Shown here piece after piece: positions 384-63,051 of a stretch of DNA of 64,000 bases. The stretch covers positions 1-64,000 of the forward strand of contig AZLU01000146.1 in the NCBI GenBank assembly GCA_002224055.1, written 5' to 3'. How positions within the stretch are numbered: position 1 is the stretch's first letter; each line of letters opens with the position of its first letter. This DNA comes from Pezizomycotina sp. ARF18. Taxonomy: Eukaryota; Ascomycota. The position numbers and the translations under genes are program-made. Under the pieces are notes generated by a model. The model saw only the letters and a list, made by a program, of their open reading frames with translations, was not told where the DNA came from and did not search any database.

Positions 384-815
384 ATGTCCCTCGAAATCAT
401 GCCAACGGAAATCCTCCTCTTGATATCGTATTACACGCCTCATGAGCCGACAAGCAATCTCTGAGGTCGACTTGCCGTCTTCTCTACCAAATACTTCCGC
501 CTCCAGTCCTCTGCCGGCATCACACATACCCGAAATGCTCCGACGTTTACAACGGCCATCCGATTACGACGATCCTCACAGACATCCAATACCATGTGAC
601 GAGCATGTATACGACCGGTGCGGTGCAAGCCGCGCGATGGCGAAACCTGTTGGCGGTATTTCGATCAGCAGGCCCAGTTTCTGAACCGACTATTTATGGA
701 TATGAAACCAGAGCGACGGCGCAGCTTGGCGGACTTGGAGCTGTTCGTCCTCGACAATGATTCTGAAGCTACTACCATCGCTTCAAGAGCATCGACGAGC
801 GGTATTTTGAGTTAA
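384..815 (+). pseudogene. F-box/CxxC family copy 1, degenerate
   Basis: The ATG at 384 lies in ACC-ATG context and opens an F-box first half (MPTEILLLIS). The frame stops after about 20 codons. The rest of the F-box continues in another frame as QSLRSTCRLLYQILPPP, and the linker ends GETCWRYFDQQ followed by FLNRLFMDM near 640-705. These last motifs match copy 2 (GETRWRFYDEQ, FLMRLARDM), so this is the same family. No CxxC pair is visible after the helix, so the C-terminal zinc module looks lost. F-box proteins bind Skp1 and present substrates to SCF ubiquitin ligases; that role here is inferred from family only. At least two frame changes are needed. Confidence 0.6.
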
Positions 816-1684
816 CGGGCATTTACGCGGCGGGGCGCGGCCGGCGCGAACTTTCAGTGGTGTCTGTGGTTATAAGTAGTTGGTTTTTTAACGTTCGGTT
901 TTGTTTTGGGCGAGGTAGGAAGATCAGGGTGTCCGGGATATATATAACTCGGCTCTTCGGAAACGTGTCAGTGTTGAATACACGCTACCTTGATCTCGAT
1001 ATTATTTTTAATTATCCAAATGCGATTCAGCAATGTTTTTGGAACACTTGGATTATCCCTTGTGGCCATGCAGTTGCTTAGGGGAGTTTGTGACTATAAA
1101 AGGGAAATAAATATATGTAAATAGCTCAGTTCTAATAATAATATTAGAGTTGAAAGAACGTGAAGCGTTTCGAGAAATATTTGCATCAATACCCCTTACC
1201 AAGCTAGAGAGTCAAAGAACGAGATACGAATTATACAAAGCATTGATTGTATGAAGTTGAGCGCCTATCGGTTGGATAGTACTTTTGAAAATGAAAATGA
1301 TTCGCTCATTGGAGTCTTCATAACTGCCGTAGAAATATCGTATTAACTGTATGTACACGTAGCTTAATTTGGACTGTGTAACGTAATATATAAGCAAGTT
1401 GGGTTTAGATCTCGAGGTTATCTCGTGTACCCCTCGCTTGTGGTATAGAGATGATCGGTGCTGATTTGTTAAATTTCACAACTCACTATTTAATGTTGCA
1501 TTGGCAACCTATGATTCAGTTGTAGGATTGCTGAAGGATATATGGTAGATGGTATCTGAGGAAATTGCGAAAGTCAATCATTTTACGTTATGAGAATGAT
1601 GATCAGGAACAGTGGCTCGGAAAAGAAGGTAGATATCCGACAGATCCAAGGATTCCTTATCGTTCATAAAGCCGGTTTGAAGAC

Positions 1685-1734
1685 GCAACGGTCCAATGCG
1701 TAGAGCTATGCAACGGTCCAATGCGTAGAGCTAT
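1685..1734. repeat. 25-bp perfect tandem duplication
   Basis: Two identical adjacent 25-bp units, each containing GGTCCAATGCGTAGAG. Not in a recognised gene. Confidence 0.95.
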
Positions 1735-3516
1735 GCCTTTGCGGCCTCCGTATAGTGCAAGCGTAGTCACAAGGCTAGAGAGCCAGAATAGAATGGGGTC
1801 GCCAAAGCATAGGTAAGGAACATTAGGCGAGCTCACTTCACGGGGGATTATTGATGATGCTTTCAGCGCAAAATGTTCATGGAGCGATCGGCCACCGGAC
1901 GCTAGATGGGATTGAACTACACGTATGCCACGGCTCGAGTGGGGATAGGCGCACCCGTAAGAGAAAGCTGGGTTGTATGGTGAGGCTGACTATACCCGCG
2001 GCCACGCCAAATATTCTTGTATCACTCCACTCGTGTTCTGATCGCAATTGCCTTCCTTCTAGACCAGACGTCAAAGGAGTAGAAAAGAGAGGTCGTAAAA
2101 AATACCATTCGTCCAGGTAAGCATTTTAGATCATCATCAGACCACCATGATCCATGGGTTGACACTAGGTGTCTTGCTTATATATCTCATTCTCGACAAG
2201 TCGCTACGCTCCTGCATCTCAAAAAGAACGGGCTATGCTTGCAATGATCCTAACCGTCTCTGGATGCCTTATTTCATCGGCGGGGCGCATCGACCCACGC
2301 ATGAGCAAAACAAACGTATCCATGACCCTTCTTTAATCCCGGTAACATTAGTATCCGGGAGGCCTAGGTATCTATTAGAAGGAGTATAGCGCTATGTGTA
2401 TTAGCTGAAGGTCCAGGTGCGCTTGCTTATCAAGTTCGCAGCATCAAGAGCCCTTAGCAATCTTCAGTTACCCTGCTATATTGTTCTGAGTTCGGCAGCA
2501 TCGAGGAGGTATATTTCACTGGAGGTCCCTCTGAGAACCGGAGCATATTCAAACTGATTCAAGATTGGGACTACCAGCCCTTGCGGGACTTTTGCGTTGG
2601 GATAGGTTGAGTTAATCATGCAGATAATACCGGGATGGTGCGGAGATTGTAGGAGAATCTCTTGCGTGCTATTAAAGAACATACGCAATGAGAGAATAAT
2701 AAGAGTACGAGAAGAGGAAGGGGTGAACCCATGTCGATGGCGGATCGAGGTGAGGATCATTGGTGATCAGGCTGTAGGGAATATTTAAGGTGAACAAGAT
2801 GACAGTGCATTTAAGACATCTCGACCGCGAACCGCCACGTCAAATTAAAACGTTGCCGAGCTTTAACTTGCCCAAAAGACACTAGCTAAAGACAAGGAAC
2901 TTGCCTTAACATGGGATCTTTTTTTCCGTTACGGTTTTCGTTCTGCCGTTCAGTATACCAGACACGGGAAGGAGATCATATATTTTGCTCATTCTCAAAA
3001 ATAAGAGCCCCTCTTATCAAACATATAAGAGCTCCTGGTATGCTCCTCCATACTTTTGACGCCTTTTTACAATATAACCCATGGCCCCCGTTTCTAACTT
3101 CCTTTCAGAAGAAGCACAAGGAGCACAAAAGCTGTCCGTTCGATACAAGGCCGTCGCTTAAAGCTGCAGGCGGCACCAATGGTTTTCCGAGTGCCCCCAC
3201 GCTTCAAAGGGGGATTGAGACCATGGTGTGAAGATCTTGACAATCTTGATGAAGAAACTTGAAGGCTTCATTGACGGAACTGTTTTCGTAATAGTTAGTA
3301 GAACAAATGGCCGAGATTCGTCAGATCGAGACAACGTAACAATCCTTTGTCCCGCTACCGATCGACGAAGCCGACAACGATAGACATGCAACTATCGTTA
3401 GATGGCGTAGCCGGAAGCGAGAAACAGTGTTTTATGCTCATACTGGAGCCGAACTAGTCTTTCTGGGATTCCTGTGCCGTCATGCATCAATGGAAATCCA
3501 CCAAAAGCTCAATTTT

Positions 3517-3543
3517 GGATCATGGATCATGGATCATGGATCT
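3517..3543. repeat. GGATCAT short tandem repeat
   Basis: Nearly four copies of the 7-bp unit GGATCAT. Confidence 0.9.
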
Positions 3544-4004
3544 AATAAATATCGATCCAATCCAATCTTCAACGTACCGGGAGATTTCGGTATCGAGTTT
3601 GTCCTGAACGAGTATGCAGAGAGTAGTGAGAAAGGGCTGATGTATTTTTGAGGCTTGGAAATATCGCAAGGGGTTGGATCAGTTTTCGCAATTTTTCGCG
3701 TTATCCTGTCTTTGAATTATACAGCGAACGCTTTTTTTTCACTCCATTCAACATCCCATGTTCTCAAACCCCTTTCCTGCTCCTATCTAATTATCCGCTT
3801 CTTCTGCTTTCTTATTTGGATATAGTTTAGCTTCATAGATAAAAAGGAGCTGGCCTTACCATGAAAAAGCTTGCAATCTTCAAAAACAACCCCTTTGTCA
3901 ATGATCCTTTTCACTCGTTTCTACATTTTCTTTCAATACAATTGTCTGCTGAACAAAGTCTCAACATATAGTAGCTCTAAAATCGAAGCAATAGCTGAAA
4001 GACA

Positions 4005-4515
4005 ATGTACTCGCTCGCTTACATGCCCACCGACCTCATCCTGCGCATCTACGCGCAACTCCCTAACGAAGCCGACAGACAGTCGCTACGATACACGTGC
4101 CGTAGGTTCACGCATTACCTACCCCGCCGATACTGGTGCCCGACGGCGGCTTACATCCTCCCCGCTCGATGATAATGTTCTTCACCGGCCTCTATCCGCA
4201 CCCCGGCTCAGTTCCGCCACGCGAAGGGGAGACTAGATGGCGCTTCTACGACGAGCAACGAGACTTCTTAATGCGACTGGCGCGCGACATGCCTAAGCTA
4301 CCGGACGGCAGGAACGCTTACTTCGCTTGTAAGGTGTGCTACAAGATTAAGGGATGCACGAAGCGTACCCGATGGGCCACCACCCTGCGATGGGTCATCC
4401 TCATGCTGGCCGTCGATGGGCACTGCTGGATCTTCAATGATGGGAACTGCACACCTTCAACCAACGGAATATATGCCACCACTGCGGGCAGATGGTATTT
4501 TGGCAGGGAGTATGA
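4005..4515 (+). CDS. F-box/CxxC family copy 2
   Basis: Best-preserved long copy. The ATG at 4005 starts an F-box: MPTDLILRIYAQLPNEADRQ followed by SLRYTCRRF. The first frame ends near 4159. Coding signal resumes in a second frame with MFFTGLYPHPG, GETRWRFYDEQ and FLMRLARDMP, then YFACKVCYKIKG (first CxxC). A third frame gives NICHHCGQMVFWQG (second CxxC) and a stop at 4513-4515. The order F-box, amphipathic FLxRLxRD helix, CxxC about 55 residues apart from CxxC is shared by the sister copies. It is probably a substrate receptor with a small zinc-binding module. Two frame changes are needed, so it is either broken or affected by consensus errors. Confidence 0.7.
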
Positions 4516-6852
4516 GATGGAGCGTGGGGGTATCGGGACCCATAATTTTCTTTCCTTTTTCTACTTTTTTTTCCTGCTTTTTTTTCTTTTCAGTTTCCAA
4601 TTTTTCGGCGTTTATGAATTATTAGGTAGCGTTGATATCCCACTGCTGGCGAGTTTGATATTCGCCATTGTTCGTAATCGTAATGTCTGTATGTAGTTTT
4701 CGCGTCCGATCTGTCAATCACCGTATAAAATATTCAATCTTACTTCATACCTACCGCGATTTACTACATATTATTTGCCTATTTCGTTTTCATAAGTAAC
4801 CAAGGCTTGATCTTAGGTGAAGTAATTAATCGTACCTGGATAGCGAAATGAAAAAACCTCCCCGTTGCCTTTCTTCCAAGGTACCGGAATTTGATCCGGC
4901 GTGGGTCCGCAAAAAAATTTGTAAAACAGCATGGCGATCCAAAAAGATAAACTCTGGAGAAAAATGCGACAGGGCGGTGTCAAACTGGCGATTCCAGCTC
5001 CACTTATGCGCTGTGCCTTGCTTTTGAGGCTCAAAAAGCAAAAACGAATACGAGCTGACATGTCCAGTCAAGGCTAAGTAAGCTAAGGGGAATAAAAAGT
5101 CCCCCTTCGCAATTCTGAACGCCGTTTGTCTCTCTCTTATTCTTTCTCGTTGGAATCGATGCTCTCTTAAGACTTGCTATTTCATTATTAGTACGTCCTT
5201 AAATCCTTAATCACAGTGCATATGTAGCAGGATTCAACGGCTTGCGACTTACCCTCCTATCGAGTTCAGAAAACGGAGCTTCCGGCCGAGGCCGTCTTTG
5301 TCCATCACGAGAGTAGCAGAACAGACTATCACTTGCCGAATAGCTTCGCTAGATTTTACTCATCGCCTGCTCCCGCATTCGCTACACTGGACCCATATCC
5401 TACATGGCAATTACCATAAGATCGGCGTCTTTGATTGACCGCGTGAACTCATGTGGAATTACCATACACAGGGAAAGAAAATGGTAGTAACCCGCACTCG
5501 GGGCGCTCGGGAATAACAATCGTGGTGGGGCCTCGATTGGAGTCTGGGCTCTGGAGGAAATAAAGCGACAGCAGCACTTGCCACGATGTCTGGGTTGCCA
5601 CATGGCAGAATCCATGAGCAATATCGGTATTATTTCCCCTTCCAGAGGCCTTTATCATGGTTCTCCCTTGTTATATTCTGTCATTATCCGCTCATTACAG
5701 TTACCGGCCGTCGATAAGCATGCGACGTTCCATCCTGTCTTGCAAATTGCGCTTGACGACTTATCCTATCGCTCATACCGCCTCGAATCCAAGTCCTTTA
5801 TATAACTACCGATGAACCAAATAATTTTCGCCACCAGAAATAAAAAAGGGACCAGACGTCAAATTTACATTATGGATCCGATCATCGATCTAAGACATAA
5901 TGGCATCGGCGGCGTATTGCGTATCCGAGAATAGATATTTTCCGATGTGGAATTCTCCGCGTGGCGAGTTTTTCTCGAAGATCATTAACTATCGCGATAT
6001 CGAAAAGTCGGCCTCAGGCGCTTCGCTCGCTGACCGTCCGGAATTAACCCTCTTCGCAACTATACCTGCACTTTTAACGCGATATATCCTGGCTTCAAAC
6101 TTCCATTAAATCCGGTATATCTTTATTAGGCCGTATCAGAAAAGTAATTGAGGGCGCCCCTTCGCGGACAGGCTCATCTTTTCCCTTACCCGATACTCAA
6201 GGAGACGTATTACAAAGCAACATCTCGCAGTAAATGGGCCGTAGGTTGTAAAATACGAGACATAAACCGCCCAATCGGCGCTGACTCGGTATTACCTTCT
6301 AAGCAATGTTAGAAACAGGACTTAGAGGATTGATATCTGGCAGTGTTGATATGGGGCAGAGCTCCTATGCTACCGCCAAGATACACCATTCGAGCAAGTA
6401 AACATATTACCTCACCAGTGTTGCTTTTAAGCTTGGCCTTTGAGATACTACTAAGTTGTTAAGGCTATAAGTTGATAAATCCCTTTCCGGTGACAAGCTT
6501 GCGCAATTGCAAGCTCAACTTGAAATAGCTTAATTGCTATTAGTTCCGGAGCTAGAGGCAGAAGTTCACTGTCTCTCCCGAAAGTCCGAAATAGAACTGA
6601 AGCCACTGCTTGACTATCTGAAAATCCAATTCAACGGAGCGGTTGTAGATAAGGTAAACCATGATCGCGAGTATTTGGATCGGATGTGCGGATTCGCTTC
6701 CGGTCGTTCATTGGCTTTTATGGCATCCCTGACACCTGTTCGTTTGCCCACTCAGCCCATAAGCGATGACAGCCTTAAATATTTCAATAACACTCAAAAG
6801 AGCCCCGCCGGCACATAATCCCCTATAAAAAGTCTCCATAGACATCACCACA
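4516..6852. other. gene-poor stretch
   Basis: Starts with a T-rich tract at 4550-4600 behind copy 2. The rest has scattered short frames on both strands with no recognisable domain. Confidence 0.45.
6824..6830 (+). promoter_or_regulatory. TATA box candidate
   Basis: TATAAAA 23-29 bp upstream of the ATG of F-box copy 3. Close for a fungal TATA box, so it would imply a very short leader. Confidence 0.4.
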
Positions 6853-7426
6853 ATGTTCACGACGGCTTTGCAATACGTCACCGCCACCCTCCCCTCCTTA
6901 TCTTCAGGTGCTTTCCCGCTGCTCTCACTGCCCGTGGAGCTAATCCTCGCCGTATCAGATAACCTCCTCGACGAAGCAGATTTCCAATCACTTCGCGCCA
7001 CCTGCACTCTTCTCCGCTCCACTCTTCCCCGACACACCCGCAAGTCACCAGAACACCACTGCTACCTCCACGCCCACCTCCCACGCAGAGCATCATTCGA
7101 CTACTACGCACACGGTCCACCGGTCGCCATACCCGCTCCGTCACCGATCCCGATTCCGGAGCGGTTTTCGTCTACGTGCAGGTGACGAAGTGGAGCGCGC
7201 CTGCCAGCTCTTCGATTTCTCCGGGCGGCTTGTTCGCGATCTTCCGTGGCTGGCTCGGAGGAATTGGTTTGTGTGTCAGAGATGCTGCCGCGTACGCCCG
7301 TCCAGCGGTAGGCAGAAAGTTGATGTAGGAGCTCTGTTGGAGACGACCTGGTTGATGAGATATTGCTGCGCCGATTGCGCGATGGATGCAAGGATTGAGA
7401 GGGCTCGGTATCCGATAAATCTTTGA
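6853..7426 (+). CDS. F-box/CxxC family copy 3
   Basis: The first frame from 6853 carries a hydrophobic Ser-rich start and then an F-box at residues about 26-60 (LPVELILAVSDNLLDEADFQ, SLRATCTLLRSTLP). It ends at 7185 after a Pro-rich linker. The second frame (7190-7426) supplies the C-terminal module: GRLVRDLPWLARRNWFVCQRC, then YCCADCAMDARIERARYP, that is two CxxC pairs about 35 residues apart. A single frame change between linker and zinc module is enough to join them, making this one of the least broken members. The paired CxxC suggests a zinc ribbon; its ligand is unknown. Confidence 0.65.
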
Positions 7427-7589
7427 TCGGCGGCTTGGTTGTGGGCACCAAACCATGGGGGCGGGGCCGGTGGGCTCCTTGCCCAACCCCCATGATTCTA
7501 ACTGCTTTTTTATAAGAAACATAGCGCGGTTTGTGAATTTATCACTTGTTCTAGCGTTCTAGGAATTTTCAATAGGCGTTAGTGCACGG

Positions 7590-9250
7590 AGGTTAATACT
7601 CAAGCGCTGGGCCTTAAAATGAGGACTCTTAATATGTATACTTTCACCAAATGAGCACATAGATTGACGCATGAAGTGCTCCTGATTCGTATTTAGCCTT
7701 TTCCATTCCCTATTACTTTATGTTAAGGCGCATCGTAACGCGAGGGTTGAAGTATCTTACCTATTTGAACACGTTCGTCAGTTAACGACTTGAGATTGAA
7801 AAACAGAGCAAAAGGATGGTTCTTAACACACATTGAGCTAGAAAATCAATGTTAGAGTTTAACGCCTTGTTCAGTCGCGTTCGAAGGTATCGAATTCACT
7901 GTATCACAGCATGATTTGGGCATCCACAATTTGAACATGAAGGATTTTGAGCTTAAAAGCGCTAGTAAGGAGTCGACGAATGGTCGGAACATGATGATGG
8001 ACAACGCAATGCTTCTCAACATATGTAAAGCCAGGGAAGCAATAGCATACCTCAATGGATGTTACTTAGTTACATCCAAAATTATTCTAATACCGTGTCA
8101 AAGCGTAAGTCGGTCGTGGCTACTCGAGGTAAAGAGGATTTTGAACCAGAACACGTAGCGGACGAGTCAACGAGTTCAAAAATGAGAAGTAGAGTAACAA
8201 AATGCTTCCCAACCTACACAAACTTGAAAATGAAGGTCGTGATTCGATGCACATTGGTCCGCTGCATCTAAAGCTGTTGAGTTTGTTTCACCTGAGGATG
8301 GGTTGAGCATCCGCTATTGAAGGACCAAATACGTTTCAATTGAAACTCGTACGTTGACCATCGACGATTTTTCAAAGTTAGTAATAGTACTGCTCAATAT
8401 ATAGTTCCAAGGGAATGGAGTATATGTATCGAAGTACCCGAGGGAGTATTCTAGATTCCGGCTGTAGATTCACTAAATCCATGTGTTGGGACTCCATGAC
8501 ATGGTGATTTTGAACATTTTAGGCCCCGCTCATTCAATGGAACGATTGCATTCGTCAAAGTAAAGAAAAAGTCACACCTCAAGTTACTACCAGACAGTGA
8601 AATAAATAGCGATTTGAATACGCCAATATGCGTTGAATTGAATATACTTACCTAACGCTCGCCTGATGTAGGTTGGGACGGCAGACATGGCACCGCACGA
8701 ATTGAAGTCGGCACAGGCGAGAAATAACGTACGAATTCAGACCTGAAACACAACGATTCTCGACATTGCTCCTCGGGAGAAACACAATCCAACCCTGCAT
8801 CAAGTAAAGTGCTCCGACTTTAATTTCATACGTGACACCTTCGGGTATTGTAGGTTGAGATATCGTTCTTTACACCATTTTGAAAAGTTCAGTGCTGCTC
8901 TGGGAGGTGATTCGGGTTCTGAGGAACATCAAAATGAGAGGACTCCAACCTATCTTCCCGAATAGAATAAAGATCCCAATCGGTCCAAAATGCCTGACAG
9001 AGTTCAACGATGGGGGTTTTAAACCTTGAACTAGTATGTTAGGAAACACCGTTACTTCAAAATTCATTTTTCTGGGCTGTCTTCAGGCGACGAAAACAAA
9101 TTAGCTAGGGCGCCAAAGTGTGATGATGTATTCCACGCGCATAGTAAGGACAATATTCAATTCATGATTGGGTAGTGGATTTATGAAAGGGGGTTTTATT
9201 GAAAGGAGATGCATGCTGGAAACCTGATCTCGCCCTTGGATTCTTCTAGC
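7590..9250. repeat. diverged ~185-bp repeat array, block 1
   Basis: Two anchor motifs alternate through this stretch. Anchor A is like AGGTTGAGAAACC (near 7741, 8104, 8299, 8482, 8668, 8851, 9032). Anchor B is like GGTTCTCAACATAT (near 7819, 8006, 8198, 8389, 8572, 8938). Each recurs every 177-195 bp, and B follows A by about 80-95 bp. The units are strongly diverged otherwise. No coding frame spans them. Confidence 0.6.
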
Positions 9251-9666
9251 GTCTTAGACTAGGGAGACCTCGGGATCTGTAACCGCGCAAGATTTTAAGA
9301 AAATGGTACCGCAATAACAGATTATTTATTCGCCAGGACAGCAGAGGAACCATAGAGTTTACCCTTCGATAAAGCTGGATTCCTTATGCTTCATTGGATA
9401 CTACAAGTCGATTTTGTGTAATAACATCCTAAAAATTAACGAGTCGGTGCATGACGTTGTCGCTATACTGTGGCAAACTCGAAGACTTGGGATCAATGAT
9501 GGGTATTCGAGTTGTCGCTGTCCTTTTCAGAGCAGCTGCAAAAGAAATTGTTGGATGTTAATGAGATACATGGCAATGACGAAATATACTCTCTATATTA
9601 TACAATCTAGAAATCTATTCCTAAAATACAATACAATGATGATACATTCATACCCTCAACTTCTAT
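9251..9666. other. spacer between repeat block 1 and a minus-strand gene
   Basis: No gene or clear repeat seen. Confidence 0.35.
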
Positions 9667-11299: not shown

Positions 11300-13900
11300 A
11301 GGGAGGTTGAGAAAGCATGTTTTCGTGGTGAAACTTTCAGAAGCTGCGGAGCGCAGTTACAGTTGGTTGACTGGCGCTAAACCGAGGGATGAAAAATATC
11401 GCCTAATCTCTTCTTCCCAAAAGAAAAAAAAGAAAAAAACCCAATAAATGAAGCTATGCGAACTTCATGGAATTGCCTTAGTGAAATACTGCGAGGGTGG
11501 TTGGTAGTCCATGTTTCATAGTTCTACGCTTCGTCGTCGTATGACCCGCCTATCCATTTAACAATATGCCAAAAGTGAGATACGCCATACCTCAACCCAT
11601 GTCTTCCCAATCAAGACTACATGAATCAATACAGTAATTCAAGCGCGTCAAAATGGTATAGCGCATTCATGGTGAAGATGTGCGCTGGGACACAAGATAA
11701 CAGATGGTTTAAGATCAGAGATGGCCCTCGGCGAATTTCCTGACGAAGAGAAACAGAAAAGTTTGAGCATACACACATACCTCTTTTTGAGCAAAGTAGC
11801 GTAAGAGTTTGTGTACAAGCCTTAGCTTCTTTGAATACCATGGGTCAATTAGTCTAACAGCATACGTTGGGGAACCCCAATTGGGTTGTGATGGTCGTCC
11901 TACGAGTATTGGCATGGAAGAACTTAGAAATGATGAGATGGTGTTCCTAGCCGTCTCAACTATACTTCCATTCCAAAGCAATCATTTTTTCGGCTCAGCA
12001 TGGCCGTGCAAGCAGAATGGCATGGAGCTTTGGCTCGGAGTCATAGGTTGAGGTACACGTAACCGAGGGAACATCATTCGACTGCTTTCCTGTGAGTAGA
12101 GTTTCAAAATGTAAATACGCAGAAAAACGGTTTCTCAACTCACCCTTTACCACGAATTCAAAGGGGTAGATCCAACCAGCCTGCCGCCTTAATCCGAAAC
12201 TACTGTTTAAATATCTTAGGGCTATAGGTTGAGATGTTCTAGCTAAGCTATATTCCTATTCCTGATCTCAGTTCGCACGTTGACATCTCTAAACTACATG
12301 AACTCTTGGATATAGCTCCTCAAGTCATACCGGATTTATGAACCTTCACAACCGATGAATTTGCTTGCTTGGGGTGATTCAAATTACATTAGATTTAAAA
12401 GTTGAGAGTACTAGTTGAAGAACCATTTCTTAGCCATTCCTCCTCTCCTTGTCGTTTACTCGGCGTGAAGGCACTTAGGAATGACAGTAGCACTTGCAAC
12501 TATACCTCCATGAGATTTGACCTTACTTTTCTATTCCCCTCAGTGCAGTGGTTTGAATGATACTCGTCTTGGTGATTGTGAAGGTAAGTTGGGGAACACT
12601 TCTATTTATGTTCTTATCGTTGGTGTTGCATCGTCAATGGAGCGTTCGACGGTCAATTAAGCGTTCGACGAACGATGTTCATGAACTGATGGTTCCCAAA
12701 GTATAGCCTGTTGAAAATTCATCACCACGACTAGACTCTATTTACCACAGTGCTTTGAATGATATTATTTTTATTGTATGAGAGGATGGGTTGGGCCACA
12801 TTCGCGGTCTCCTGCAATTAAAAATCCAGGACTCGGGTCTTTTGGCTCAGGAGGGGTACTCTATGATCACGGTTACTCAAACTATATAACTCGAGAAGTA
12901 AAAGCACCCAGCTGAATTCCCCAAGCCTACCCGGATTCAATAAAATGAATCTGCCTCCTGAGATTGCTAGGTTGAGAAACCATTTCTCACGGAAGTTGAT
13001 AATCTTGCTCGCGAACTAATCATCCCGCCTCTAAAAAGAAGAATTTTACAAATTTACAAGCAAACGGTTCCTTGAAGCATTTAACCTGTAGATCTCAACA
13101 CCACCAATGCACTCCCGGCATCCCCCTGAGCGAGGAAATATAATTTTGCTTGCGGGATCTGTTAGGTTGAGAAACCATTACTCAGAGAGGTTCATATCCT
13201 CATCTTGTATGCCCGCCATACCTTGCCTTAAAAAGGAACACTTCGAAAAATGGTTTCTTGTAATACCTCAAGAGAGATTCTAAGAAAAGGAATATACTCC
13301 GCACATCTCACTGAGTTCAAAAATATAGATTCGCGTCCTAAACAGGTTATGTTGAGCAACCAGATTTTAGGGATGTTTAAATCCCACGTTGTGGACGTAG
13401 GTTTGGCTTTGACGAAAGGAAACTCAGGAAAATGGGGTTCCCAAAGTATATTACCTTCAATTTTGAAATATAGAATATTATGTACTCACTCACGCGGATC
13501 GGAATATGTGAATTTTCTTCAGAGAAAGGTGGTGTTGGGTATCTATCAATACTCTCCATGCTACCTTATGCGTTGCATAAGGAATATAGTACCTCATACC
13601 GCAGCCCATGTAAATAGCGTGAGTCCAACATGTACTGCATAACAGTTTAAAATACACAATCTCGCAGAGCTAACGCTGGTGGATCGTGAATTAGAATCAA
13701 TTGTCAATGAGATGATAGGTTGAGGTGGACGGTTTCGAGTGGTGAAGGAGTAAATCGTTGGTGATGGGAGTGGGATTTGGGCGAAAACGACATACACCAG
13801 AACGCGGTTCCCAAACCATACTACAAGACTAAACTTGAGGTAGAATCTAAAACTGCTTAGTGCCGCGGATGACAAATTATTGTTCTTTTTTGCGAATAGC
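11300..13900. repeat. diverged ~185-bp repeat array, block 2
   Basis: About fourteen units. Anchor A (AGGTTGAGAAACCATT or close) occurs near 11303, 11498, 11680, 11867, 12046, 12222, 12402, 12583, 12785, 12969, 13163, 13346, 13531 and 13716, spaced 170-202 bp. Anchor B (GGTTCCCAAAGTATA or close) lies 85-110 bp after each, best seen near 12691, 13436 and 13806. The units at 12969 and 13163 share the longest identical start. The same anchors build block 1, so both blocks belong to one family split by a gene. Confidence 0.65.
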
Positions 13901-14361
13901 ATACGTTCGTGTATATCATGTTTTCCCATACTGGTCGTTTATGGGATAGTGACGAGGGGCATGCCGAGCGGAGTATTACGAAAATTAGGATGTCCCAGCC
14001 TACGACTGCACACTGCGAGGACTGTACTTTTGGAATCTCCAGAGCGAACTCGGTTAAATGCTGAGGCATTTACTCAAGCCATAGTGGGTTTGGGACTCGG
14101 GATTTCGGACTCGTACGGAGCTTGGATTCTATCAGCAGATCGTAAGGAGAGCCGGTGCAGAGAACCAAGGTTAAGACAACCACGACATCGCAAAGATACT
14201 ACATTCTCTGGACAAAAAGCGAAAGCTTGAAGCACCAAAAATTGCTCTTGAAGCAATAACGCTGCTCAATCCCCAAGGCGCGAATGTTCTTTTAGGGAAT
14301 GGCAAGTTTGTCCCGGTCATCACGGCGGGTTTCCAAATTTTTCTTACCAGTGGAATTAAAA
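13901..14361. other. no gene seen
   Basis: Open frames on both strands near 13880-14230 carry no recognisable domain and are probably chance. Confidence 0.35.
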
Positions 14362-14710
14362 TTAAATTAAAACGGCGCGGTTTAACAACTTCCTCGTCCA
14401 CACCTCGACATCCACCTCCATCCCCATCTGCAATTCCTTCCCGTACTCCCTAACCTTCTCAATCTCCCTCAGCTCCCTAAAAAGCTATCCAGCATCCCAC
14501 CACTTCCTCATCTCTTACCTTTCCTTTCTATCGTCTCATCCTTGTCCCACAAACAGCCCTACCAAACATCTCACAATTCTCGCAACTCCCCACCTCTCCA
14601 CCCCAACCCCCTTTCTCCACCACCGTTTTGCTTCCTCCCAACCCTACAACAATAAACACGCAATATCTAATACAGAGCAAAGCACTAGGGAGACGGCGCT
14701 TCAGCAACAA
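14362..14710 (-). pseudogene. 3' fragment of an F-box/CxxC family copy
   Basis: Minus-strand text reads GSCENCEMF (CxxC) near 14595. After frame changes it gives ELREIEKVREYGKEL and GMEVDVE, ending at 14362. The tail is nearly the same as that of copy 5 at 17.8 kb (EPREIEKVREYGKQF, MEVDSKR). The nucleotide text is also alike, including the stretch coding GMLDSF. No F-box is found upstream. The fragment starts beside the poly(T) run at 14730-14757. It shows that the charged tail is a conserved family module. Confidence 0.6.
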
Positions 14711-14729
14711 GATTCGTTAACAACTAGTG

Positions 14730-14757
14730 TTTTTTTTTTTTTTTTTTTTTTTTTTTT
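14730..14757. repeat. poly(T) tract, 28 bases
   Basis: Uninterrupted T run at the upstream edge of the family fragment on the minus strand. Confidence 0.95.
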
Positions 14758-15189
14758 GTTTAAAGATCTTCGCATTAATTCGTCTGGCGAACAGCTATTC
14801 ATGAATTGAAGCTCTTGAAACATCGTTCTAGTATCGAGGACTAAGATAATCGGGCAAAAGAGACAAAAGATCTACCATGGGCCGAAAAGAAACCCCGAAG
14901 AAGAGAAAATGCCCCCCGGGGAAAGGGTGTTGACAATGAGTCTTGATATGTACAACGAGGGGAACGCACACGCACGACACTGCTACTTAGTACCGTGTGC
15001 CCTAACAAGAATCTATGTTCCAGGGAGTCTTGATGGTCTTCTTCAACAGCCCTACACATAACGGTTGCGTCGAAGGCCAGCAATCCATCGACTCGGAGGG
15101 AAAGACCACTTTCAAGATCCCCTATCCAAGAGCCGTCATGTATCTGTGTATCTGAGCTAAAATACAACTTTCACAAATCAATCATCGAG
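14758..15189. other. no gene seen
   Basis: A minus-strand frame (14841-15167) is open but has no family match. Confidence 0.3.
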
Positions 15190-15672
15190 TCAAAAAAAAG
15201 TCCTGTCCAAGTACACCCCAATGCTCCCTGTATACAAAGAGTATCGGAATAACAAGGACAAAACCAAACAAAGCCTATCAGAGCGCAACCCTGAAAAGTG
15301 TGAGCCTTTAACTATAAAGAGTATTGAAATAACCATCAAAAATATCCAACATACCCTATCAAGGCGCAACCCTGAAAGCGAGGGGTTAGTACTCCAAGAC
15401 CAACCCGTACGGCCTTCCCTTCTTCCTGTTTGGAAAATCCAAATCGTCATGCGCGACGCGACTGGGGTCCTTGCTATAATCAAGGCCAAGCTCGCCGAAT
15501 CCTTTCGTGATGCTCGAATCCGAAGTCCTTCTACCAGGCTGTCCAGGCTGTTCCTGTCTGCTGGCCTCCAAGAGTCCGACCTTCTCCTATGTTCAAAGTC
15601 TCGCTGTGGTGGCCTTTTGAGATTCATCTCCTGCTGATCAACACGCGGGTCGATAACTGTCGCTCTCGTCAT
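15190..15672 (-). CDS. unrecognised frame downstream of F-box copy 4
   Basis: The open frame begins MTRATVIDPRVDQQEMNLKR. A second frame carries SSITKGFGELGLDYSKDP and HDDLDFPNRKKGRPYGL, which looks like protein text. It lies directly behind F-box copy 4 on the same strand and may be its C-terminal half after a frame change. Its last part runs through an 80-bp duplication (15236-15380), which is unlikely to be coding. Function unknown. Confidence 0.3.
   Translation of the reverse strand: MTRATVIDPRVDQQEMNLKRPPQRDFEHRRRSDSWRPADRNSLDSLVEGLRIRASRKDSASLALIIARTPVASRMTIWIFQTGRREGRTGWSWSTNPSLSGLRLDRVCWIFLMVISILFIVKGSHFSGLRSDRLCLVLSLLFRYSLYTGSIGVYLDRTFF
15236..15380. repeat. imperfect ~80-bp tandem duplication
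   Basis: AAAGAGTATCGGAATAAC at 15236 recurs as AAAGAGTATTGAAATAAC at 15316. CTATCAGAGCGCAACCCTGA at 15277 recurs as CTATCAAGGCGCAACCCTGA at about 15356. Two diverged copies of one unit. Confidence 0.85.
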
Positions 15673-16093
15673 AACCGGCGCCGGTTTCGTCGGCGGCCTA
15701 AAAATCCGCCGCAGAACGACCGCCGCGTTATGCCTATAATTCTTTGAAGACTGCGTGGCTTTATCCTTAGATTACCTTTTTCGAGGTGATTGATGAGACG
15801 GGCGGCTTTTTCGGGAGGATGTTTATGCTTTGATAACTTGATCGGTTGGAACGGAAAGTAACGGCGAATTCTGCGAAGTCGGAGTAACAATGAAACCCGG
15901 GAGCTTGGAGCATAGTACAAGGGAGGAGGTGGGGAAGGCGGGGAGGCGGGACGTGTATTCTCATGTACCGGCAAGAGAGGCGGACCGATTGCCTGTCCTT
16001 ATCGGACTGGATGTGAGAGAGGATACGATAGAGGACGTCCAGGGGATGGACAACAGCGGTGAGGGAGTGACCAAGGAAAGTGGCGGCGAGCAA
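15669..16093 (-). CDS. F-box family copy 4
   Basis: The frame from 16093 starts MLAATFLGHSLTAVV and holds an F-box at residues 15-50: HPLDVLYRILSHIQSDKDRQ, SVRLSCRYMRIHVPPP. DRQSVR matches the DRQSLR core of the sister genes. A neighbouring frame gives HPPEKAARLINHLEKGNL, which may correspond to the FLxRL helix. No CxxC is visible nearby. It may run on into the frame at 15190-15672. Family role (Skp1-binding receptor) is by homology. Confidence 0.55.
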
Positions 16094-16242
16094 GTCATGG
16101 TTATTTATAAGAACTGGCTCCGTGGATGGAGGTTGTTAGATTTTGTTTGCCGTTGGAGAAGTGGTGGTGGTTGTAAGTGGTTGTTAATTTTGTTTGCATG
16201 TTGGTTGTTTGCTTGAGGTTGAATATTGCCGTTTTAAGGAGG

Positions 16243-16258
16243 AAAAAAAAAAAAAAAA
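16243..16258 (-). promoter_or_regulatory. poly(dA:dT) tract upstream of F-box copy 4
   Basis: A16 on the plus strand, T16 for the minus-strand gene, 150 bp before its ATG. Such tracts exclude nucleosomes in fungal promoters. Confidence 0.35.
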
Positions 16259-16272
16259 GCGTCAAGAACTGT

Positions 16273-16301
16273 CTTATTATTATTATTATTATTATTATTA
16301 T
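16273..16301. repeat. (ATT)n microsatellite
   Basis: About nine ATT units. Confidence 0.95.
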
Positions 16302-17196
16302 ATTTTTTATTTTAATTTTACCCTTGGCAGTAGACGCCGCCGACGCTCTAGTGTATACTTCTCCCGTGCGTTTCGATATTGCCTGATCTTCAGGTGGCAG
16401 TTTTGCTTCTCACGTGAACGACATTTGGCGACTGTATCATGCCTCGGCGCGGCGACATTGTTTGCGGCAGTTTGCTGCCTATCTGCGCTTCGCAATATAT
16501 CCTTGCGGAAAAGTTTTCAAAGACCAGGCAATCGGGCCGGGCCGATGTTTCGGCGCGATTCATGCCATGATCCTCCCCACCACACGACAGACGATAAACA
16601 CCACCTTATAGCATCACTAATCCGTTGCAAAAAACATAGCTGACGAACAGCTCTAGCTATTGATCCAAGGTACAGTGCCTAGCGCCACTAAGCTAAAGTT
16701 CAGAAAAGAATAAGGCTGAGGCATCGCCCCACCAAGTCATCCCAAGCTCTCGAATCGAATCAATCCTTCCGCAGCTAGTAATGTTGACAAATCTCTCTCG
16801 CCATGGCGTGCATGGCAGACAGACGGCGAGCAACGTTTTCGAATCAATTCCTGGTTTAATTTCGTCCGCTGCCAATATAAAACCAGGGGTTGCTTCCAGA
16901 AAAAAGTCTCCCCTAAACGGTGTAACGGTCAGGTCGACGCTTCCTACCCCTCACGTAAGCTTTAAATAGGCATGAAACAACCCACCGCTGCAGGGAGTGG
17001 TGGTCGTCGATAATTTCGCCAAAAATCACGACACTCAGATTGAGATCTCCCTCTATCGGGCTTCTGTTCTCCTTCTCGAATCGCAATTATCGAGACGGCG
17101 AGGCAGACAAAAGCAGACATCCCTGATTCTCGACGACTTATGCGCTAAGCTGACTCTGATATAAGCTAAACCAGCACGCAGATTTTTCGTCCGGAG

Positions 17197-17207
17197 TTTT
17201 TTTTTTT
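17197..17207 (+). promoter_or_regulatory. poly(dA:dT) tract upstream of F-box copy 5
   Basis: T11, about 100 bp before the ATG at 17305, followed by CCCCTTATATTC. Confidence 0.35.
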
Positions 17208-17304
17208 CCCCTTATATTCAATCTATGTCAGCTTCCTCCAACATAATTCGCACCTGCGTAATCCCGAAATTTCGTCACCATCCACACCATCAACTGCCCC
17301 CGAT

Positions 17305-17859
17305 ATGCAAGAAACCATAATGACGACGATCAACACCCTAACCCCCGAACTACTACTCCTCATCTCCTCCCACCTCACAAACGAAGCCGACGCGCAATCC
17401 CTCCGCTACGCATGCCGCGGATTCCACACCATCCTCCCACCGCCGACAACGATAATGTACACCTGCGACTCCGCGACATTTCGCTTCTATACGGCTTCCA
17501 CACAAATACTTCGAACAATCAAAAGACGACGGACTGGATACGACCCGAAGAACGAAGGGAATTTTTAGCGAGATTGTATAGGATATCAAGGATAAAGAAG
17601 GGTTGATATTGTGCGTTTACTGCTGTAGCATCGGTAAAGAGCAAAACAGGAAAAGGGAGGAACGGCTGTCAGTAGGTGTGAACGGTGTCACGAGAGGGAT
17701 GTTTGTAAGAAGGGTGTATTGGTGAAGGAAGGGGTGAACAAGGGCGGCGAGGTAGTGGGCATGCTGGATAGCTTTTTTCGGGAGCCGAGGGAGATAGAGA
17801 AGGTTAGGGAGTACGGGAAGCAATTTGAGGTGGAGATGGAGGTAGACAGCAAGAGATAA
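17305..17859 (+). CDS. F-box/CxxC family copy 5, full architecture
   Basis: Most informative member. The F-box is at residues about 10-50 from 17305 (LTPELLLLISSHLTNEADAQ, SLRYACRGFHTILPPP). A second frame (17412-17606) carries IRPEERREFLARLYRISRI, the FLxRL helix. A third frame gives LCVYCCSIGKEQ (first CxxC). After another change CERCHERDVCKKGVLVKEG (second CxxC with ER following) runs without stop through GGEVVGMLDSFFREPREIEK and VREYGKQFEVEMEVDSKR to TAA at 17857-17859. The order F-box, helix, CxxC, CxxC-ER, charged helical tail appears to be the ancestral layout. The start could also be the ATG at 17320. Confidence 0.7.
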
Positions 17860-18332
17860 AAAGACGAAATTGAAGGCAGGAAATTAATATTACTTTTTTG
17901 AAAGGAATTCTCTCCGCAGGCCTGCTGTCGCCCCTGCCCAGTAAAATTGAGCCCCTGGACCCGCTATATATGCTCTTGATTGGTTTGCTATTTATGCGAG
18001 CGTCCGTGATGGTGACTGCCTATGGGCTGAAAAACACAAAGAGCCGCAAGAAAAAGAAAAAGTCGCAATGACCAGGCTCACGTTTATGGGCTGCTTAAGA
18101 CCAGCTTATTACGCTGCTGCGTTGTTCATTAGGACAACAATTCCCAAGGTGGACCAGCCACAGCTTCAAGAAAACTCAGGATTAATCCTTAAGCTGTCTT
18201 CCCTCCTACCCATACTACTATGTCTTCCTCCTTTATACCTATGTACAAAACCTTCGCGAAAAAACCCTATAACGCCGCGGAAAAAAAAAAAACATAAAAA
18301 CAGAAATAAATGAGAAAAGAAAGACCAAGAAA
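17860..18332. other. spacer before F-box copy 6
   Basis: No gene seen. Contains a poly(A) run at 18281-18292 upstream of copy 6. Confidence 0.4.
18281..18292 (+). promoter_or_regulatory. poly(dA:dT) tract upstream of F-box copy 6
   Basis: A12 about 40 bp before the presumed ATG at 18333. Confidence 0.3.
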
Positions 18333-18840
18333 ATGTTCACCCACCACCTCCCGCAAGCCCTCCTCACCCTCCCATCCTCATCGCCACCGTCTTCGTCGTC
18401 CTCCCCCCCTCCAAAGCCCCGAAAACGCGCAAAACGACACCACATTCCTCCTCTTTTCCACCAGAACTACTCCTCCACATCCTCTCATACCTGTCAGAAT
18501 CCGACGTTCAGTGTCTCCGACATACCTGCAAGCGGTACATACCGCTCGTTCTTCCCACCACCCCAACCACCGTCGTCGAATAGAAGTGAGCAGCGCCGGA
18601 AGTTCATGCAGCAGCGTAAAGACTTCCTTAGGAGGATCGCGAGGGATTTAAGCGGTGGCGAATTCGCGTGCTTGCGGTGTTATACTATACAGCATGGTGA
18701 GAACTGCGATAGTAGGTGAGAGGGGGGAGTGGTGTAGAGCTTGTTGGGAGAGACGAGGCGGTGCGTCGCTTAAAAGGAAAAAAAAAAAAGAGGAGAGGAA
18801 GGTGAGAAGAGATAAAGAAGAGCCGGTTATTGCGTCGCAG
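18333..18840 (+). CDS. F-box/CxxC family copy 6
   Basis: The ATG at 18333 opens a Pro/Ser-rich leader. The F-box lies in another frame as PELLLHILSYLSESDVQCLR and HTCKRYIPLVLP. The first frame then supplies QRRKFMQQRKDFLRRIARDL and FACLRCYTIQHGENC (first CxxC). The next frame gives EWCRACWERRGG (second CxxC followed by ER) and a Lys/Glu-rich tail running into an A11 stretch. CxxC-WER is shared with copy 11. The 3' end meets copy 7 on the opposite strand. At least three frame changes. Confidence 0.65.
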
Positions 18841-19221
18841 AAGCACATTCTTTACAGCTCCTACTCCACCCCATATCCCCCTCCTTATCATAAACAAACC
18901 GTAAACACGGCTCGCTTTCTTCGCGAAGTAAGAACAACCCAGGCATACGAACAGCGTCCTATTCCCATCTGCGTCTTGCATTGGTCTGTCTTTTAGCAAT
19001 CGGAAGAGGAAGGCGCGCTGGTGTTGCAGTCCCGGGCTGACCCAGCGGAATTTGCGCGGTTGCTTTTCGGGGTTCCGTGCGGCGCGGGAGGAAGCGAGGA
19101 GCGGAAGGGTTTGCAGGTGAAGCGCAGACATTGGCGGTCTGTTTCTGTTGGGAGGGAGTGGAAGATTTGGAGGAGGAGCTCGAGGGGGAGGAGGAGATGT
19201 AGTTTGTGGTGGTTTCGACAT
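18841..19221 (-). CDS. F-box/CxxC family copy 7
   Basis: The minus-strand ATG at 19221 starts MSKPPQTTSPPPP. One frame over lies a clear F-box, LELLLQIFHSLPTETDRQCL, then RFTCKPFRSSLPP. The original frame then gives HQRAFLFRLLKDRP and TLFVCLGCSYFAKK, the helix and first CxxC. No second CxxC is seen before the convergent copy 6. The leader and F-box differ by one frame step. Confidence 0.6.
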
Positions 19222-19561
19222 CGTTTTGAGGGCCTTTGAAGTGTCTTGATGAAGAATATCGAATAGTAGACTATTTTGAACGGATTAAATACTGGAAAGT
19301 TACCTCACTTCGTTCGCAGTTTTTTTCTCTTGAGGCGGGGGGGTTACCGTCTACTCCTTCCACAACGAGGAACACTGCCACCGAGATACACGCAGGATCG
19401 AAAAGCACAGCCTGAGAATATAAATCCCTTGAACGAAATATTGCCATAACGCCTTGGAAACAATGGAGCTCCGGGCTGCGAAAAACAACGAGAGTATGGA
19501 AGCGGAAAAAAGTGAAAATGTTATACTGTACTTTCTTATTCACAGTCCACGCCGCGTGCAT
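19222..19561. other. spacer between minus-strand copies 7 and 8
   Basis: No gene seen; promoter region of copy 7. Confidence 0.35.
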
Positions 19562-19969
19562 TTACGACACGTGATGGAGCGGTCCACCGTCCGCCCCGAA
19601 CCAGAATTGCGTCGCTGCTTGGTGCAACTGAATACACCGACTGCACACGAACCACTTCTCCTTCTCCGCGACGGCAAATCCCTGATCAGCATGTTCAGAA
19701 AGTCGGTTTTTTCCTTCTTGTCTTCCAGCAGGAAACTTGGAAGTACGGGACTATGCCAGTGGGTTCTGCTGTGGGTTCTTGTTTCTTGGGCATGGGGAGG
19801 AGGTAGTCCGCGGTTGACGTGTCGTGAGCGGTGGAGGCGGGATGATGGCGTAGAGGCGCCTGCAGGTGTGACGGAGGGATTGGCGTCTGCTTCGGAGAGT
19901 ACGATGGGATGCGATGCACAGGTGAAGTTCGACGGGAGGGAGAGTACTGTGGGCTCGTGGAGAAGTCAT
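19562..19969 (-). CDS. F-box/CxxC family copy 8
   Basis: The ATG at 19969 begins MTSPRAHSTLPPVELHLCIA, then RRQSLRHTCRRLYAIIPPPP, a diverged F-box with the QSLRxxCRR core. Another frame supplies EKTDFLNMLIRDLPSR, the FLxxLxRDLP helix. A third gives VCSRCIQLHQAATQF (CxxC) to a stop at 19562-19564. No second CxxC is visible. Three frames are used in 400 bp. Confidence 0.55.
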
Positions 19970-20260
19970 CGAGGGGAGTTATTGGATAAAAAGTTGAGAA
20001 TCGCGTGTACTTTCCGTAGTGTCGATGGTGTTTCTTCTTTCTTTCTTTTTCCTTTTCGTGGGGGCTCCGCTACTTTTGACTCAGCGAGAAAACGTGAATG
20101 CGGTTCCACGCGAGAGCCCATGCTCGTCCTCCTTTTCTTCCCTCCCCTCCACAAAAATTTCAAACCGTTCCAGTGTACTTCGGCCATCCTACTACGCTGC
20201 CACCCCAAGCTACCGCAATCTCGGCACGCTGTAAACCGCGCGCCAGCGTTCTTCTCCTAC

Positions 20261-20330
20261 TCTTCTTGTTCTTCTTGTTCTTCTTGTTCTTCTTGTTCTT
20301 CTTGTTCTTCTTGTTCTTCTTGTTCTTCTG
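20261..20330. repeat. TTCTTCTTG microsatellite, ~7.8 units
   Basis: Nearly perfect 9-bp unit, 70 bp long. Because the unit is divisible by three it keeps frames open on both strands. Confidence 0.97.
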
Positions 20331-20466
20331 TTCCGCTTCTTCTCCCTGGCCCAGATACCGGTACAGCTTCGCTGTCTCCCGCAGGCAAACGCACGCAGCG
20401 CACGAGAAACCAGTCCGCCTCTAATCTGCGGCGGCATATCTCTAAGCATCCTACTTGAAAAATCGA

Positions 20467-20479
20467 TTTTTTTTTTTTT
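20467..20479 (+). promoter_or_regulatory. poly(dA:dT) tract upstream of F-box copy 9
   Basis: T13, about 55 bp before the ATG at 20534. Confidence 0.35.
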
Positions 20480-20533
20480 CGCGTCGTCGGCCTACCTGGG
20501 AACATCAAGATACGGGAAATCTATACGCTTTTT

Positions 20534-20887
20534 ATGCACGAAGCCGCCAAATCGTCCGTCATGCCTCCAGGCCCTACGCTCCCTCACTCCCACCGAACTC
20601 CTCCTTGAAATCCACTCTACTTCACACCACGGTCGTCTGAACGTCGAATCCCTCCGCGCCACATGTCGCCTCTTCCGCTCTCTGCTTCCGCAACTGTACT
20701 GCGAGCCTGCGGGCCTTCGCGACTCAAAACGATCGTCCCGAAAGATGGAATATGCTGAGGAGGCAGCTGAGTTCCTGAAAAGGCTAGCGAACGATTCCAA
20801 TGGGCGTGCTCGCGCTGCAACGGGCTCATCGAAGGGAAACCGGTGCGGTGCGAGGATTGCAGGGAGCGTTTGAGGTTTTGGAAGTGA
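20534..20887 (+). CDS. F-box/CxxC family copy 9, compact
   Basis: The ATG at 20534 opens MHEAAKSSVMPPG. One frame over, the F-box reads LTPTELLLEIHSTSHHGRLN, then VESLRATCRLFRSLLPQ, and stays open through EYAEEAAEFLKRLANDSN, the helix. A second change leads to WACSRCNGLIEGKPVRCEDC, then RERLRFWK and stop at 20885-20887. The two CxxC pairs are only 12 residues apart, giving the clearest zinc-ribbon-like arrangement of the family. It is the shortest complete-looking member, about 115 residues. Confidence 0.65.
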
Positions 20888-21002
20888 ATAAGGAGAAGGT
20901 GGTGAGAGGTTATGAAGCTCGAGCTCTACGGTTCAACGTTTTTTATTGAGGGTGGCGGGGATAAAGGAATAAACATAGAGTTCGTGGAGGCTCTGTTCAG
21001 CC

Positions 21003-21023
21003 TTTTTTTTTTTTTTTTTTTTT
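21003..21023 (+). promoter_or_regulatory. poly(dA:dT) tract upstream of F-box copy 10
   Basis: T21, about 95 bp before the ATG at 21118. Confidence 0.35.
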
Positions 21024-21117
21024 GTTTTTAAATCCAATCCATTAATTTTCAATCTTTACTCGCTACACCCCCACCAAACACCCTTCACCACTCCACATTC
21101 ACATCGCCCATCGCACC

Positions 21118-21506
21118 ATGATGACTCTCACGATAACAACCCTCCCCTCGACGTCCTCTTCGTCATCCTCTTCCCGCCTCCCGACGAAATCGACCGGCAG
21201 TGCCTCTCCGCCACGCTGCGCGGCGTTCTAAAACGCGCTCCCTACACGCCTCCGACCTCCACCACCCGAGCAGCATCTGGCTCGACCGCGACGCCAGAAG
21301 TTCTTTACACCCGCATACTCCTCTCCCACGTCCGGAAACGTAAAGCGGCGGCTGGTTGTCTGCTGGACCTGCTGCAAGGTTAAAAACACCCGGAGTCGCT
21401 CGGTGCGTTCAAGTTATCGAGGGAAAAGGCGATGCTAGAGAAGAAGAGGATTGTGTGTTTGAGTGTGTTGGTGGACAAACGGTGTGGAGGGGCGCGCTAT
21501 AAGTAG
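21118..21506 (+). CDS. F-box/CxxC family copy 10, degenerate
   Basis: The ATG at 21118 is in CACCATG context. The F-box lies in a shifted frame as PPLDVLFVILFPPPDEIDRQ, then CLSATLRGVLKRAP. Another frame reads RLVVCWTCCKVKNTRS, one CxxC. The last frame gives HPESLGAFKLSREKAMLEKK, RIVCLSVLVDKRC to TAG at 21504-21506. The FLxRL helix is not recognisable. DRQCLS replaces the usual DRQSLR. Confidence 0.55.
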
Positions 21507-21574
21507 CTGAAAGGATTTTGGAGATTTTCGAAGACCACTAACCGGTCCACGTTTCGTCTCTGTTAACAAGACGC

Positions 21575-22181
21575 TTAATTGTTCAGTGTTTTAGGTACTC
21601 TCGGATGGAGAGAAGCAGGAGAAGTGGAAACCCGTCTGTCTGCGTTCGTAGCCGCATCATAACCAAAGACTGAAACACGCACAGCCCCTCGTTCACATGA
21701 AATAAATAATAAATACCCCCTCAAGTATCTTACTATCACCAAACTCCAACACCGCGCTGCGGTCCTGAACGTCCTCTCCCAGCAATCCCAGCACGCCGAA
21801 CCACTCGCGGCCCGCTTATAACTTAAACCCCCTCTTCTCCTTAATCTGAACGCATACGGACACACGCTATATAAATCTTCCTCTTTACATCTACAATCAA
21901 CTTTTTCAAAAACTCTTTTGTTCGCGGGGGTTGTGCCAGGAGGCGGGGTAGTGGTGCTTCCAGTACGGTGGTATTTGTTTTGGACGCGAGGGTCCATGTA
22001 CCGCGGAGGGATGGCCGGAGAGGGAGGTGGGAGGCAGGAGCGGAAAGAGGCGGCAGGGTAGCGGAGGGATTGGCGGTCGCATTCGGAGGGATATCCGAGA
22101 GGATTATGTGGAGGAGCTTCGAGGGGGAGAGAGAGGATGGAGCAGCGGCTTTCGATGTTGTCGTTTTGTTGGGTCCGTCAT
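21575..22181 (-). CDS. F-box/CxxC family copy 11, degenerate
   Basis: Minus-strand ATG at 22181 (MTDPTKRQHRKPLLHPLSPP). The F-box is split over frames: KLLHIILSDIPP, then ECDRQSLRYPAASFRSCLPP. The helix reads RTKEFLKKLIVDVKRKIY followed by IACVRMRSD, where the first CxxC has lost its second Cys. A later frame has SACWDCWERTFRTAAR, the second CxxC with the WER signature also seen in copy 6. The end is uncertain: the frame with CWDC runs to 21575, another stops at 21693. Confidence 0.55.
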
Positions 22182-63050: not shown

Positions 63051-63051
63051 C

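Follow-up and report, generated by a model that had tools for sequence, protein, structure and literature searches.

A local cluster of short, diverged F-box genes with a conserved helix and paired cysteines in a contig of Pezizomycotina sp. ARF18

The first 22 kb of a 64,000-nucleotide stretch of contig AZLU01000146.1 from the ascomycete Pezizomycotina sp. ARF18 (assembly GCA_002224055.1, positions 1 to 64,000 of the forward strand; hereafter the window) carry a clustered family of F-box paralogues marked by a conserved helix and CxxC motifs in pairs, which profile searches, a position-specific scoring matrix (PSSM) and the statistics of CxxC placement show to be real. In its architecture, an F-box spanning about 37 residues is joined by a variable-length linker to a helix of the FLxRLxRD type, and two CxxC pairs follow, the second often being CxxCxER. 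The interpretation favoured here, with modest confidence, is that one small F-box gene has given rise to a local cluster of old paralogues; these would encode short F-box adaptors of the SCF (Skp1–cullin–F-box) type with a four-cysteine (Cys4) module, and many of the breaks in reading frame would be insertion or deletion errors (indels) of the assembly. An earlier note on this DNA had listed twelve F-box loci; what was traced at each is given below, with the position under which it had been listed in brackets.

Copy 1 (384): 378..720, plus strand; F-box split over two frames (378-461, 446-505), helix QAQFLNRLFMD (FL at 678); no CxxC found within 260 nucleotides (nt) of the helix.
Copy 2 (4005): 4005..4495, plus strand; F-box 4023-4133, helix 4265, CKVC 4328, CHHC 4474.
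Copy 3 (6853): 6853..7423, plus strand; F-box 6928-7038, then a weak helix variant 7217, CQRC 7274 and CADC 7367, these three all in one frame.
Copy 4 (14362, minus): 14411..14667, minus strand; C-terminal part only, with a degenerate first Cys pair, CENC 14584 and a charged tail; F-box and helix were both looked for and neither was found.
Copy 5 (15669, minus): 15938..16048, minus strand; F-box only.
Copy 6 (17305): 17338..17856, plus strand; F-box 17338-17448, helix 17562, CVYC 17612, CERCHER 17677, charged tail to 17856.
Copy 7 (18333): 18455..18753, plus strand; F-box 18455-18565, helix 18624, CLRC 18669, CRACWER 18733.
Copy 8 (18841, minus): 18840..19190, minus strand; F-box 19190-19080, helix 19011, CLGC 18945, CKEC 18856.
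Copy 9 (19562, minus): 19555..19942, minus strand; F-box 19942-19820, helix 19701, CSRC 19645, CRKC 19569.
Copy 10 (20534): 20589..20884, plus strand; F-box 20589-20708, helix 20772, CSRC 20807, CEDCRER 20849.
Copy 11 (21118): 21140..21400, plus strand; weak F-box, CWTC 21361 as the sole CxxC; helix not found.
Copy 12 (21575, minus): 21780..22142, minus strand; F-box in two frames (core CDRQSLRY at 22081), helix 21912, CWDCWER 21793; first CxxC not found.

The F-box is the best-defined part of the family. A profile built from seven copies and searched against the six-frame translation of the window matches ten loci at E ≤ 4e-5, all within 446-22177, and an eleventh weakly (copy 11, 20979-21380, plus strand, E 3.2e-3), so that eleven of the twelve claimed F-boxes are recovered and none was found at 14362(-). 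The training copies account for seven of the ten and all return in leave-one-out searches (7/7, E 7.2e-16 to 3.3e-4), and the other three were matched without training, namely 19754-19978(-) (E 3.5e-8), 446-757(+) and 21578-22177(-). The weak F-box of copy 11 also matches that of copy 5 at the DNA level (67% over 132 columns, E 9e-5). The next profile match, at 57298-57489(-), reaches E 0.053 and nothing beyond 22.2 kb is significant, the best value in 20 Markov-1 random windows being 0.014. The core consensus reads LPxELLLxI...DxQSLRxTCRxFRxxLP. When the Pfam F-box models PF00646 and PF12937 were scanned against eleven F-box loci, seven matched at E 1.3e-7 to 0.094, and two exceeded a gathering score: copy 7 (18314-18580) with both models (PF12937 F-box-like, 31.7 against 24.3 bits, and 26.6 against 20.5 bits for the other) and copy 8 (18996-19304) with PF00646 (23.8 against 20.5 bits); copies 2, 3, 5, 6 and 9 match below the cut-off. 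AlphaFold2 run on eight aligned F-box pieces models three helices (H2-12, H16-25, H27-32) with a predicted local distance difference test score (pLDDT) of 83 and a predicted template modelling score of 0.50, and a sequence-profile search of the PDB with the F-box gave two matches, one unrelated (E 0.52) and the other FBXO31 (E 2.4).

The helix and the cysteine pairs follow the F-box in a fixed order in a majority of the loci. The same ordered motifs had been described from most or all of them; the complete set of F-box, helix and CxxC was found in seven of the twelve (4005, 6853, 17305, 18333, 18841(-), 19562(-) and 20534), whereas five (384, 14362(-), 15669(-), 21118 and 21575(-)) are incomplete at the motif level. 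With a 12-residue PSSM run over the 64 kb, the FLxRLxRD-type helix of eight copies scores 26.7-34.7 and the best other place 13.4, one of the training strings having been off by one residue; in leave-one-out scoring, six of the eight outscore every unrelated place and two (18841(-) and 21575(-)) fall under one. A ninth helix, the variant of copy 3 (7205, plus strand), scores 10.4, under three unrelated places, and was counted owing to its position ahead of two CxxC. The helix thus stands at nine loci, once in weak form (6853), but was not found at 14362(-) and 21118, nor is it part of the F-box-only locus at 15669(-). Downstream of these nine anchors, which were taken from the earlier note and from the analyst's own reading and hence were not chosen blind, a CxxC lies at 30-70 nt in seven (background 3-5%), at least one lies at 30-170 nt in eight (background 9-15%) and two separated pairs lie at 30-170 nt in six (background 0.5-0.8%, taken outside the cluster). 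CxxC pairs therefore accompany eight of the nine anchors within 170 nt, with 384 lacking any and 21575(-) lacking the first.

Such placement leaves next to no room for the idea that the motifs are products of chance or composition. CxxC is not a rare motif, 126 occurring across the window's six frames, but backgrounds of 0.5-15% stand against an observed six to eight of nine anchors. All six frames of the 64 kb together contain four CxxCxER, each at the place of the second Cys pair (copies 6, 7, 10 and 12), and the E-values of the ten F-box loci lie far under those of the 20 random windows. A chance origin of the motifs is refuted by these three lines, and the conserved CxxC spacing on which the earlier note had staked the family is upheld by the seven anchors at 30-70 nt and the four well-placed CxxCxER.

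Comparison of the copies with each other indicates considerable age. DNA similarity between them amounts to 62-70% and is nearly confined to coding parts, the longest match joining the truncated copy 4 (14411-14667, minus strand) to 17605-17846, a part of copy 6, at 68% identity. By this measure the copies are old paralogues, and recent duplication is ruled out by the same values. Across eight F-box pieces (1027 codon comparisons) the differences per first, second and third codon position are 0.46, 0.39 and 0.60; the proportion of nonsynonymous differences (pN) is 0.46 against 0.65 for synonymous ones (pS) in six F-boxes, and 0.47 against 0.90 in eight of the nine helix pieces, copy 3 being left out. 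The concentration of substitutions at third positions implies that the copies diverged largely under protein constraint. Dispersal by a mobile element that had captured an F-box would suit the presence of copies on both strands and the 32-base T/A run (14730-14761) that adjoins the truncated copy, but it is improbable, given that similarity is almost wholly limited to coding parts, that no shared flanks or terminal repeats of at least 40 nt emerged from a repeat search and that the profile finds nothing significant beyond 22.2 kb. Decay by repeat-induced point mutation (RIP) is ruled out for the region as a whole, since its two indices over 1-22200 (0.81 and 1.10; 0.81 and 1.09 in the rest of the window) are outside the RIP range of at least 0.89 and at most 1.03 quoted in PMC3828140.

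The motifs of a single copy, however, rarely share a reading frame, a difference that the earlier note had overlooked. In nine loci traced (copies 4, 5 and 11 left out), the motifs are spread over two or three frames in all nine. Copy 6 has its F-box in frame 0, the helix in frame 2, the first Cys pair in frame 1 and the second in frame 0, the helix and the two Cys pairs being separated by gaps of 17 and 44 nt that are too short for introns; in copy 9, WFVCSRCIQLH stands in the frame next to that of FLNMLIRDLP. It follows that the lengths of the open reading frames (ORFs), 115-190 residues, are not gene lengths, and the compact form previously claimed falls away, as it was read from single-frame ORFs, which do not span a whole gene. 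The most obvious account of so many breaks would be a pseudogene array, most copies being relics of a birth-and-death F-box family with real frame breaks. We regard this as a serious possibility, though not a probable one. No copy among the nine traced is free of breaks, eight breaks fall in gaps of at most 46 nt, and five of the twelve loci are incomplete and may be true relics. An excess of changes nonetheless persists at third codon positions, and Cys and ER residues are retained beyond the breaks. The window also contains other genes of fungal type, which by themselves would point to a filamentous ascomycete:

42582-43777, plus strand: CRAL_TRIO_N/CRAL_TRIO gene (SFH5, Sec14-like), used as a frame control; frame changes inside contiguous homology.
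47593-48288, minus strand: MFS.
63588-63998, minus strand: Kre9/KNH.
55953-56363: ankyrin repeats.

Frame switching was traced in 42582-43777, 46700-48400(-) and 62700-64000(-), where it recurs about every 200 nt with some gaps too short for introns. Counted as frame changes between recognised peptides, the nine F-box copies have 19 switches in 3349 nt (1 per 176 nt) and SFH5, MFS and KNH together have 10 in 2034 nt (1 per 203 nt), with eight and five, respectively, in gaps of at most 46 nt, a limit chosen post hoc after the table had been viewed; an aspartic protease was excluded from the count. Against the solved SFH5 chain PDB 6w32, residues 139-174 (weakly, independent E-value 0.8) and 211-273 align in one frame and residues 180-216 in another, and as the pieces 180-216 and 211-273 overlap on 6w32, there is no room for an intron at that switch. 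Because these three genes break about as often in the stretches that were compared first, breaks in the F-box copies are by themselves no proof of decay. The contig seems to carry uncorrected indels, and many of the breaks between motifs would then be errors of assembly and not of the genes. Programmed frameshifting pervasive in this organism, by which intact genes would be read across the breaks, could likewise account for switches in all 12 genes or copies traced, but it is very improbable: SFH5 switches in both directions within one gene (frame order 1-2-1), which random indels fit better, and long unbroken stretches are present. Methodologically, a frame break in this window should not be read straight away as the mark of a pseudogene, and single-frame ORF lengths mislead.

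Several observations weigh against a cluster of genes broken mainly by assembly errors. None of the nine traced copies is intact in a single frame. The control stretches were picked once breaks in them had been seen, and the MFS and KNH peptides of the count were assigned by inspection; SFH5 is the only control aligned to a relative by a tool, its first piece weakly as noted, and the 55-nt gap at its first switch might hold a very short intron. Cross-frame support by tool was sought for the MFS and aspartic-protease pieces, and none was obtained. Unbroken coding-looking stretches exist at 40638-41402 (765 nt) and 42642-43046 (405 nt), and with these two added the controls come to 10 switches over 3204 nt (1 per 320 nt), so that the F-box copies appear more broken (one-sided p 0.085; p 0.32 for gaps of at most 46 nt). 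This comparison lowered our estimate for intact genes slightly, from fairly probable to the modest confidence stated at the outset, and raised that for relics from doubtful to a serious possibility. In 18.3-22.2 kb the second RIP index is 0.99, which meets one of the two thresholds. The Pfam F-box models have no match in copies 1, 10, 11 and 12 among the eleven loci scanned, and on the helix-Cys part every Pfam model stays under its cut-off, the best result for the Cys part being E 0.012 (16 bits, with the cut-off at 25) in one member of seven. Searches with the Cys part gave nothing significant either, its profile reaching E 0.047 at best against PDB sequences and its model from copy 3 returning nothing at E ≤ 0.001 in Foldseek (best E 2.3). 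The assembly very likely does contain indels, though these may not account for all breaks in the F-box copies, and some true decay among the copies is possible.

Under the favoured interpretation of old paralogues with an indel-ridden assembly, a mechanism can be proposed for the encoded proteins. F-box domains bind Skp1 and recruit substrates to the SCF ubiquitin ligase. The F-boxes of the copies, judged by the domain itself, would bind Skp1, and the proteins would act as SCF ubiquitin-ligase receptors that mark other proteins for destruction. The helix and a Cys4 module holding one zinc ion may form a compact end that binds substrates or partners, making for a minimal receptor with a binding surface of helix and zinc hairpin. 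A structure prediction of this module, which the earlier note had proposed, yielded for copy 3 a helix of 20 residues and a second, short one, a short strand on each side of the first CxxC and, where the second lies, a C-terminal helix, with a mean pLDDT of 66 and, as given above, no fold match at E ≤ 0.001; the zinc-ribbon-like end that the earlier note had suggested is plausible. Intact copies would amount to SCF receptors of a very simple kind, and their roughly ten variants would form a natural panel on which to ask what a minimal substrate-binding end requires. A bolder version, in which they constitute, within one fungal lineage, a separate and rapidly diversifying family of SCF receptors of very short length, with a substrate end of a single helix and one zinc-binding hairpin and a clustered repertoire resembling a recognition array, is in our view unlikely.

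Short F-box proteins of Pezizomycotina with an FLxxLERD-CxxC-xxLH-type end appear to have motifs of similar order and wording, to be compared with FLNMLIRDLP and WFVCSRCIQLH of copy 9. The copies resemble the SCF receptors of PF00646 and PF12937 in their core motif and three-helix model, and differ from F-box subfamilies with leucine-rich repeats (LRRs), WD40, kelch or ankyrin in having a short helix and two CxxC pairs instead; none of these four kinds of repeat had a Pfam match in the cluster segments scanned. The idea that the compact form matches no described family survives for the helix-Cys part in terms of Pfam, but the F-box is an ordinary one (PF12937/PF00646), and expansions in ascomycetes have been published. 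Table 2 of PMC3828140 places F-box among the expanded domain families of the nematode-trapping fungi Monacrosporium haptotylum and Arthrobotrys oligospora, and Table 6 of PMC3218866 places it among the major paralogous expansions of Trichoderma. For filamentous ascomycetes, these two tables bear out the statement that F-box expansions are known in many lineages; the expansions are given there as counts alone. Two further papers report 74 F-box proteins in Aspergillus nidulans, 46 of them SCF-associated (PMC9744329), and 31 in Macrophomina phaseolina (PMC7991009), of which 19 are without a second recognised domain, as the copies here would be; the latter paper describes the M. phaseolina genes as not duplicated, unlike the clustered copies. 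No description of the F-box, helix and CxxC architecture was found by title or abstract start in open PubMed Central, one lichen genome paper (PMC6652019) makes no mention of F-box, and a search of viral_contigs returned no relatives, either by protein or by exact DNA.

Outside the cluster, one further gene has a similar layout:

61688-62260, minus strand: separate F-box-like gene, recognised by eye from an F-box-like ENLPLELV and a later CSGCMKL...KYCKEC.

Its match to the family profile is not significant (E 1.6), and the layout suggests that the pairing of an F-box with Cys4 recurs. F-box-like openings of other types stand at 44576-45058 (20.6 bits, the Pfam F-box cut-off being 20.5) and, together with the gene just named, were recognised by eye at 45994, 57560(-) and 58979, none of the five being significant with the family profile. 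The GC content of the window is 42-52% in 2-kb steps; ARAGORN with the bacterial code found no tRNA in it, and Rfam gave no match at gathering score. Between copies 9 and 10, an array at 20261-20333 contains eight TCTTCTTGT units, one frame of which reads as a CSSCSSC run but forms no genuine Cys module. Two single-base runs (T and A), each of about 30 bases, occur immediately upstream of the truncated copy 4, at the position given above, and at 36833-36861. Three diverged direct repeats with a period of about 190 bp, 59-72% alike, occupy 12869-13537.

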